A DNA stretch of 64,000 nucleotides from Rhodothermales bacterium (GTDB lineage: Bacteria > Bacteroidota > Rhodothermia > Rhodothermales > VXPQ01), in NCBI GenBank assembly GCA_022821845.1, contig JAJECT010000029.1, forward strand, positions 1 to 64,000. The letters are read 5' to 3'. The position numbers were made by a program, and so were the translations under genes. The notes beneath the pieces are model-generated. The model saw only the letters and a list, made by a program, of their open reading frames with translations. It did no database searches and was not told where the DNA came from. This document shows positions 61,589 to 64,000 of this stretch, one piece after another (the first letter of the stretch is position 1; each line of letters begins with the position of its first letter).

Positions 61589-61985
61589 TATGCTGTCATG
61601 TCCTGCCTGTGAACACGGAAACGAAAGCGAGGCAGCGGCGGCATTGCATTGGGTGGATACAGAATGCCGTAAGTAATCTACAAAAAAGGAAAGATAATGT
61701 CAACAAAATGTAAACACCGCGGCCCCCGCCGGATATCCGCAAGCCGTTCGAAGCAATTTCGCGGCGGGGCCGACCGAAAATCCGGAAGCGGAATTAACGG
61801 GCAAAAAGGGATAAAAACAATATTATAGCATAAAATCTTTTTACGTTATCCAGGGAATTGCCCGCCCTTATGCAGGCCGGTCGCTGGAAAAGCGAACGTA
61901 TGCCCGCCCTGTACACGCGCAACGAAGCCGCAGGACGGGGAGCCGTTGCCCGGTACTACAGGCAAGGGGAACACTACGCCACGCC

Positions 61986-62225
61986 GTGAGCGTATACCCT
62001 GAACGGATTCCTTTCAAAGCCCTTTCAAACCGAAAAGCCATGATCGAATACCTTGACACAATAGCCGTCGTTGTCGCGATAGCCGTTCCGGTTATACGCT
62101 TCTGGAGCATTCCGAAGCGTTTCGACAAACTGGAATCGAAGGTCGAAAACATGGATTTACGCCTTGCCCGCATTGAAGGGCATCTTTTCGGGGCCGCGCC
62201 CGCGCTTCCCGAACAGAAAGGATAA
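61986..62225 (+). CDS. Small membrane-anchored coiled-coil hypothetical protein
   Basis: IEYLDTIAVVVAIAVPVIRFWSIPKRFDKLESKVENMDLRLARIEGHLFG: one TM segment plus heptad-like region. Alternative start at MIEYLD. Confidence 0.5.
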   Translation: MSVYPERIPFKALSNRKAMIEYLDTIAVVVAIAVPVIRFWSIPKRFDKLESKVENMDLRLARIEGHLFGAAPALPEQKG

Positions 62226-62416
62226 TCGAGCGCGCCCGGTCGATCCTGTAAATCTTTGCTGTGCATTGATTTATGGAGCGCGGAGACCCCTGAAGCAAGC
62301 GAATAACAGGGGGGTGGGGAACCGGTGAAGGGGAGTCAGTGTAAAAGATTTGGCAGGTCCTTGCGCCTGCGTGTTCAAGCGTTAACCTCCTTCCCCTTGG
62401 TTCACGGTGCGCCCGG

Positions 62417-62878
62417 ATGCGTACGGTATTTGAGCGCGAAGCTGCGCGTCTTCTGGCGCGTGAAGCAGATCTAAAAAAGCAAGCGGCGGTGGCGGAGGCG
62501 CGTAAAAGGGCCGCGCTGGCACGTACGGAAGCAAGGCGAAGAGAACAAGCGCGCCCGGTTGTTGCAGCGTACGAAGCGCAGGCGCGGGCATGGAATGCGG
62601 AAGCGGATTATGATTTTGTTGAATACGACGGTTTCAACGAACCCAAGCAAAGGCAAGCGGCGGGCGCGAGAATCAACGCTGCACGGGCGGAAGGGGGCGG
62701 TTCCTTTGCGCGTGAACAGGCTTCGCGGGCAAACCTGCACGCTTTGCGGGCGCGGGAGAATGCTTCAGATTGGCGGAGTACTGCAAGGCGTAAACCGGGC
62801 GGCCTGAAGGAACTGGCGAATAAGGCGGCGCAGGCGTGGGAAAGCGCAGCCCAGGCATGGGAAGAGGTAGGGGAGTAG
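62417..62878 (+). CDS. Small Ala/Arg/Glu-rich coiled-coil hypothetical protein (cassette 1)
   Basis: ARPVVAAYEAQARAWNAEADYDFVEYDGFNEPKQRQAAGARINAARAEGGG; the AAYEAQA.A..AEA segment recurs at ~63487-63530. Confidence 0.55.
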   Translation: MRTVFEREAARLLAREADLKKQAAVAEARKRAALARTEARRREQARPVVAAYEAQARAWNAEADYDFVEYDGFNEPKQRQAAGARINAARAEGGGSFAREQASRANLHALRARENASDWRSTARRKPGGLKELANKAAQAWESAAQAWEEVGE

Positions 62879-62889
62879 CTCCGGGGCTT

Positions 62890-62991
62890 GTGCAGATCGA
62901 CGAGGCGGCGTATCTTGTCGGCAGGCGGAAACCCGTTTCGCCGGAGCCTGATCAACGAAAACCCCGAATACAATGGCAAGCAATGCACTAA
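62890..62991 (+). CDS. Very small ORF (GTG start), MQIDEAAYLVGRRKPVSPEPDQRKPRIQWQAMH; overlaps next gene start
   Basis: Absent from ORF track; conserved YL...RKPVSP segment repeated at 63628-63726. Confidence 0.4.
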   Translation: MQIDEAAYLVGRRKPVSPEPDQRKPRIQWQAMH

Positions 62992-63206
62992 AAGACGAAA
63001 TATGCTGTTTTGTTAAAGATAACCCCGGATGTCATTATGGAGATATAAAAACGGCTTTAGGGTTGGGTTATTATCCTGCTGAACCTGTTCACGAGCTTAT
63101 TCAAGAGGGTAGAATAGAACACCGGGGTTTCCCGAAAGCGCAGGCCAAGAATGCTAACTTGTTCATTACGTGGCAGGAGGCACAGGGCCAGGGCATCTTG
63201 AAGTAA
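62973..63206 (+). CDS. Small winged-helix-like DNA-binding protein
   Basis: MASNALKDEICCFVKDNPGCHYGDIKTALGLGYYPAEPVHELIQEGRIEHRGFPKAQAKNANLFITW: wHTH-like; locally low GC. Confidence 0.55.
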   Translation: MASNALKDEICCFVKDNPGCHYGDIKTALGLGYYPAEPVHELIQEGRIEHRGFPKAQAKNANLFITWQEAQGQGILK

Positions 63207-63400
63207 GAGCCCGTTCTGCTGCTTTCCGCGCCGCGAACGCAGGTCGCATCAAGCGGGCAATTGACCGCAAGCGTAGGGGACCCCTGGCGCGAACGGACAG
63301 GGCGGCGAGTAGACCGGTGGGGGGCTTTACTCTCTATGATTATTTTGCTTTGGTGTTACCTTGTTAGGCGTGTAACCCTGACATAGACCGGAGACAAGCC

Positions 63401-63560
63401 GTGCCCTACGCGGACCCCGAAAAGCAACGCGAAGCGAATCGCGGAGAATACGGCTGCGGCTTTGACTCCCTTGCAACGAAAGATTATTGCAGCGTACGAA
63501 GCGCAGGCGGCGGCCTATGCTGCGGAGGCGCGGACTTCGACCGACCCGGCGCGTGATTAA
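63401..63560 (+). pseudogene. Probable frameshifted small gene (cassette 2 relative of 62417-62878)
   Basis: GTG-start frame reads (V)PYADPEKQREANR..., while a shifted frame downstream reads PLQRKIIAAYEAQAAAYAAEARTSTDPARD and stops at 63560. Confidence 0.4.
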
Positions 63561-63627
63561 AGGCGCGAACGGTTTCGGCGGGTGCCGACGCTTTCGGACC
63601 GTGCGGCCTGCATTCTGCGGGCGGCTT

Positions 63628-63726
63628 GTGCGGATCGGCTGCGGGGGGTACCTTTTCTACGGGCGGAAACCCGTTTCGCCCGATTCACGAAATCAGACAA
63701 CCACAGGAGGTAGCCATGAATTTTGA
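63628..63726 (+). CDS. Very small ORF (GTG start), MRIGCGGYLFYGRKPVSPDSRNQTTTGGSHEF; overlaps next gene start
   Basis: Shares ..I....YL...RKPVSP with 62890-62991; in the same frame as the tail of ORF 63487-63726. Confidence 0.4.
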   Translation: MRIGCGGYLFYGRKPVSPDSRNQTTTGGSHEF

Positions 63727-63982
63727 GCAGAAAGTCCAAAACTTCGAGAACCGCTTTGCGGAGAACGAGCGCGAAAAGGTAGAGAAAAGCAAGAAGAATA
63801 TGAAGGATGAATTGGAGGCATTGAGGGCGGACGCCTCATCCCCGTTCCAAAAATCACTGCTCGATCTGATTGGAAAGTCCTTTGAAACAGCGGCAGCGGC
63901 GTGCCATTTTGGGATAAATGCGAACGTAACGGCGGACAAAGCGCTCAAAACAGCGAAAAAAGCGAAGGACGCGGCGAAGTAA
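63716..63982 (+). CDS. Small Lys/Ala-rich coiled-coil hypothetical protein
   Basis: MNFEQKVQNFENRFAENEREKVEKSKKNMKDELEALR...; AGGAGG Shine-Dalgarno just upstream of ATG 63716. Confidence 0.6.
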   Translation: MNFEQKVQNFENRFAENEREKVEKSKKNMKDELEALRADASSPFQKSLLDLIGKSFETAAAACHFGINANVTADKALKTAKKAKDAAK

Positions 63983-64000
63983 GGATTCCCCGCTTCCGGG

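Follow-up and report, generated by a model that had tools for sequence, protein, structure and literature searches.

A probably recombinase-linked, decaying genomic island in a Rhodothermales bacterium with a repeated putative promoter element before different small genes

Genes and features at the locus

The window, a 64,000-nt stretch of Rhodothermales DNA at the start of contig C3, ends on the right with two units of small genes (Table 1). The original prediction had described them as two diverged copies of a three-part cassette, in which two conserved parts are followed by an exchangeable third gene. The ORF positions that it gave were confirmed. The DNA repeats between the units are also real, with identities of 79% and 81%; however, they do not constitute a three-gene cassette, and unit 2 is degenerate. 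The segment taken for a diverged first part of unit 2 is rather a 47-nt relic of ORF A. As proposed, the third genes of the two units are different; H is winged-helix-like and C2 is an orphan coiled-coil protein.

Table 1. Positions of the features in the window and on contig C3.
Feature	Position	Strand	Remarks
Left junction	61795..61796	.	Chromosome through 61795, island starting at 61796
Tyrosine recombinase, 3'-end remnant	61854..61989	+	Inverted relative to C3:64712-65416; 94% over 113 bp to L031 4715-4827, opposite strand
79-aa ORF, likely membrane segment	61986..62225	+	tblastn, 64% over 66 aa to L040 2797-2994, in a G001 island (C46)
Intergenic repeat (GACCCCTG...ACCGGTG) before unit 1	62278..62346	+	Aligned with four other copies
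ORF A, 153 aa, predicted helical bundle	62417..62878	+	Shortened member of an Ala-rich protein family; homologues, dN/dS, structure model
Putative promoter/leader, copy 1	62882..62956	+	TTG, 20 nt, -7-like box 62911-62918, dyad 62924-62942; model R1, E 3.5e-20
H, 77-aa winged-helix-like protein	62973..63206	+	Start codon at about +51 of element copy 1
Intergenic repeat before unit 2	63274..63342	+	85% to G001:C32:175-240
ORF A relic, 47 nt, AAYEAQA stretch	63484..63530	+	81% to 62559-62605
Putative promoter/leader, copy 2	63621..63692	+	TTG, 20 nt, -7-like box 63649-63656, dyad 63662-63680; model R1, E 2.5e-19
C2, 88-aa orphan coiled-coil protein	63716..63982	+	Start codon at about +56 of element copy 2
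60-bp repeat after C2, start	63979..64000	+	Runs past the window to C3:64038; 90% over 60 bp to C37:402-461
Tyrosine recombinase, frameshifted	C3:64712-65416	-	N-terminal part in a different frame; just outside the window

Insertion site and recombinase

Two conserved chromosomal genes are probably separated here by an accessory genomic island, the left part of which forms the right end of the window. In a sequence comparison with the sister species (G001), a DNA identity of 94% to the window stops at 61795. Past the matching point, the G001 sequence proceeds into the next conserved gene and represents the uninterrupted site, at which the gene order is also conserved in G002-G004. In the genome studied here, this next gene is found on contig C42 (starting at base 170, C42:170), and contig C3 ends at 66383. 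The start of C42 is the same IS5-like end as that at the C3 terminus, and it directly abuts the chromosomal sequence TAATGCAACG. Because the site is uninterrupted in G001 and the far flank lies on C42, the insertion comprises all of the sequence that follows 61795 and measures 4.6 kb or more; the IS bounds or has trimmed its right side. The join between C3 and C42 passes through this repeated IS and is putative because the IS is multi-copy. No attachment-site direct repeats were identified at the island ends, the right one having been replaced or trimmed by the IS. An Rfam scan of the island returned no RNA family.

A search for an integrase, which the original prediction had recommended, found a tyrosine recombinase gene just beyond the window (Table 1). 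The 3' ends of this frameshifted copy and of the remnant at the left edge both point inward, and an IS5-like element is also located in the island. An intact relative of the recombinase in G001 consists of 333 amino acids, with a Pfam phage integrase domain (PF00589) and an N-terminal SAM-like domain. In NCBIfam, it gave weak XerC/XerA matches and none to the integron-only integrase model. The recombinase-edged layout recurs at two further chromosomal loci, whose contents differ between the two species. One is C6 of this genome and C7 of G001, with flanks that are 94-95% identical; the other is C45 of this genome and C49 of G001. Where the C45 and C49 islands end on the right, the flanking chromosome contains the sequence GGAACCCGTTTTCG (L072 7885 and L074 6657), which is like the core of the dyad described below and may be a chance occurrence.

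ORF A, H, and C2

ORF A belongs to a real protein family. Codon comparisons within the family gave dN/dS values of mostly 0.25-0.6, with constraint in most pairs. Among 60 related genomes searched, its relatives were confined to this genome and G001. These homologues argue against a chance similarity, which the original prediction would have concluded from a lack of further copies and homologues. In most of the relatives, the common region of approximately 110 residues is the C-terminus of longer Ala-rich ORFs with a signal-peptide-like N-terminus; these longer proteins are probably exported. In the relative on C6, the common residues are preceded by a membrane-like N-terminal segment. ORF A of the window has neither type of segment. 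Its structure was modeled as a helical bundle (pLDDT 95.3, pTM 0.80), and a Foldseek search with the model gave nothing at E <= 0.001 (best 0.93 in the PDB and 0.65 among viral structures). The genes 3' of other family members vary, including a small ORF (G001 C14), a 174-aa ORF (C34), and a type IX-sorted protein (G001 C7). The ORF after one further family gene (L032 9437-9958) weakly matches the candidate defence family PDC-S14 (E 2.5e-5) and appears GIY-YIG-like by eye.

H has two paralogues in this genome. Searches of Pfam and NCBIfam with ORF A, H, and C2 gave nothing convincing, and a defence library had no match to these three window proteins.

The repeated element

The two units are linked by a 61-nt repeat (62885-62945 and 63623-63683), in which 48/61 positions are identical (79%). 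When the region was randomised 100 times with a first-order Markov model, the maximum was 33/61; the duplication is far above the chance level. A search of two genomes with model R1 detected five full copies of the element and one half copy, with the remaining matches near noise. There are at most two copies per island, each located before genes.

The published primary promoter of Bacteroidota consists of a -33 TTTG box and a -7 TANNTTTG box, with the T at -12 as the start of the -7 box (PMC6847099). All six copies of the element have a TTG approximately 20 nt before a box of the TANNTTTG type, with TTG, a spacing of 19-20 nt, and TAYCYT shared throughout. The boxes and their spacing therefore resemble the published promoter, and the predicted start lies just before the dyad. 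However, the -7 box is exact in only one copy and imperfect in the other five, including those in the window (TATCTTGT and TACCTTTT), and a dyad at the predicted transcript start is outside the published consensus. This dyad of 19 nt starts at the predicted +2 to +4 in each of the five full copies, which share the invariant sequence ACCCGTTTCGCC within varying flanks. The intact downstream genes have their ATG at +51, +53, or +56 from the predicted start. The strict promoter motif is not enriched in the whole window (2 sites versus 1.6 expected), and a relaxed motif upstream of genes is only about twofold commoner in the sense than in the antisense direction, in a redundant set. The whole element folds no better than shuffled sequence. 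A terminator was also considered for the dyad and was ruled out, as no T-run follows it.

The genes next to the element differ on both sides. On the 5' side are ORF A (window unit 1 and G001 C6), the ORF A relic (window unit 2), a DUF4126 gene (C6), and a small membrane ORF (C18 and C45). On the 3' side are H (window unit 1 and C6), C2 (window unit 2), an unrelated ORF (C45), and an IS (C18 and G001 C6). Therefore, the element is bound to neither of its neighbours. It is also present without ORF A on C18 and C45, and the DUF4126 gene intervenes on C6. The idea of a modular locus thus holds in that a shared part adjoins different genes; however, this part is most likely a promoter/leader, and it recurs without ORF A as well.

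The original prediction treated the same segment as a tiny gene with a conserved 'RKPVSP' peptide. Translations of the five full copies in the same register are YLVGRRKPVSP, YLFYGRKPVSP, YLYGRQKPVSP, YLCDGAKTRFA*, and YPFRRGGNPFRP, so that the KPVSP peptide is kept in three of the five, as would be expected for a real small protein conserved between the units. However, the frame is lost in the other two, no start codon is common to the copies, and the dyad is conserved as DNA across these frame changes. A small protein is hence extremely improbable, and the tiny ORF is most likely a promoter/leader rather than a gene.

Proposed organization and alternative explanations

We consider it likely that the region is a decaying, recombinase-linked island with a reused promoter module, in which different small island genes are placed behind the same promoter. 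Such an island would carry degraded copies of the tyrosine recombinase and would have been struck later by the IS5-like element. Its interior would be made of copies and relics of gene families common to several such islands of the genus. The repeated piece would act as a promoter module of the Bacteroidota -33/-7 type, and its transcript would start right at the 19-nt dyad or hairpin, followed by the start codon of the next gene at approximately +50 to +56. Since neither neighbour of the module is constant among its copies, different small island genes would come under the same promoter. The promoter is presumably active, and its copies may have spread by duplication and recombination among the recombinase-carrying islands. 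The dyad may form a 5'-terminal mRNA hairpin, a role that we put somewhat ahead of that of a repressor operator.

In the operator explanation, a winged-helix repressor, either H or a relative, would bind GGCGGAAACCCGTTTCGCC immediately past the start site and control each gene that follows a copy of the element. The dyad is indeed the most conserved stretch, H lies directly behind two copies of the element (window unit 1 and C6), and H has weak MarR-type matches (PHROGs E 7e-4; PDB profile E 0.22). However, the structure model of H is unreliable (pLDDT 44.7), no H was detected in G001 although the element is present there, and the third H paralogue (C37) has no dyad upstream. This explanation is possible but doubtful. 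An extended proposal, in which a promoter-plus-hairpin module is shared by the small islands of one Rhodothermales genus and lets a winged-helix regulator encoded on the islands control newly acquired genes jointly, is unlikely; if true, it would amount to a plug-in regulon for accessory genes.

The origin of the island can be explained in two other ways. If it is what remains of a prophage or of a phage satellite with small regulatory genes, this would account for the recombinase of the phage integrase family, the small HTH gene among many small ORFs, and the insertion in a conserved site. However, the recombinase and the weak HTH matches stand alone among the window ORFs scanned, in which no phage structural, packaging, or replication gene was recognised. 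ORF A, H, and C2 have no relatives in IMG/VR, and H has none in phage and plasmid records. The PYADPEKQREANR segment, which the original prediction likened to small phage-encoded proteins, has no PHROGs match, and no other convincing copy of it was found among 20 loci compared. A phage origin is accordingly quite improbable. An integron-like gene-cassette system, with the repeat as the recombination site of the nearby tyrosine recombinase, is very unlikely. It would fit a dyad-bearing repeat that adjoins exchangeable genes and a tyrosine recombinase, the half copy on C45 that diverges just before the dyad, and the presence of GGAACCCGTTT in the chromosomal sequence that borders the C45 and C49 islands on the right. 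However, the recombinase matches no integron-integrase model beyond the weak XerA-type match, and the dyad core was not seen at the left edges of the islands. The repeat is promoter-like and fixed before genes, not after each of them, with no more than two copies per island. An integron proper was rejected on the basis of the integrase type (no IntI-type match) and the repeat layout (the element does not bound each gene).

Comparison with known systems

The decaying island with its reused putative promoter can be compared with the flexible genomic islands described in Salinibacter ruber (PMC6060240), which belongs to the same phylum. Both have variable content at equivalent positions in related genomes, together with recombinases and mobile elements. 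The segment studied here is missing from the equivalent site in close relatives and contains a recombinase gene, although a degraded one. Unlike those of S. ruber, the islands here are a few kb in length and share a few repeated gene families and one promoter element. Integron gene cassettes are superficially similar in having small exchangeable genes near a dyad repeat and a tyrosine recombinase; however, the recombinase here is no integron integrase by family model, and the repeat is promoter-like and precedes genes instead of bounding each one. The intact G001 relative has the catalytic and N-terminal SAM-like domains of the PF00589 recombinases, whereas the copy beside the window is frameshifted.

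The island is a fairly ordinary accessory region, and its notable part is the reused putative promoter. The results correct what was probably a mistaken small-gene call, in that a promoter next to accessory genes can pass for a conserved 'micro-ORF'. They also point to a promoter that is shared by integrase-linked islands of a little-studied bacterial order. The Ala-rich helical family of ORF A, which is probably exported, turns over within these islands; it is an orphan family without relatives in the searched libraries.

Other repeats in and near the islands

The intergenic repeat that precedes both units is weakly conserved. At L037 7796-7976, two inverted GACCCCTG...ACCGGTG copies are located about 180 bp apart and resemble a small transposon-derived element. 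The 60-bp repeat after C2 is also found 3' of the H paralogue on C37; its CCCC/GGGG arms precede a DnaA-box-like sequence, TTATCCACA. Near-identical signal-peptide DNA (MKxRILFLAAALTLAALP) is present in many island genes, fused to differing downstream proteins (L037 8050-8106, 8891-8947, and 16399-16445; L035 10876; L038 13752; L032 11075). One of the carriers of this segment (L037 8901-10031) has a type IX sorting domain. An Ala-rich, exported-looking ORF contains tandem repeats of 21 nt, corresponding to seven residues, at L037 16644-16907.
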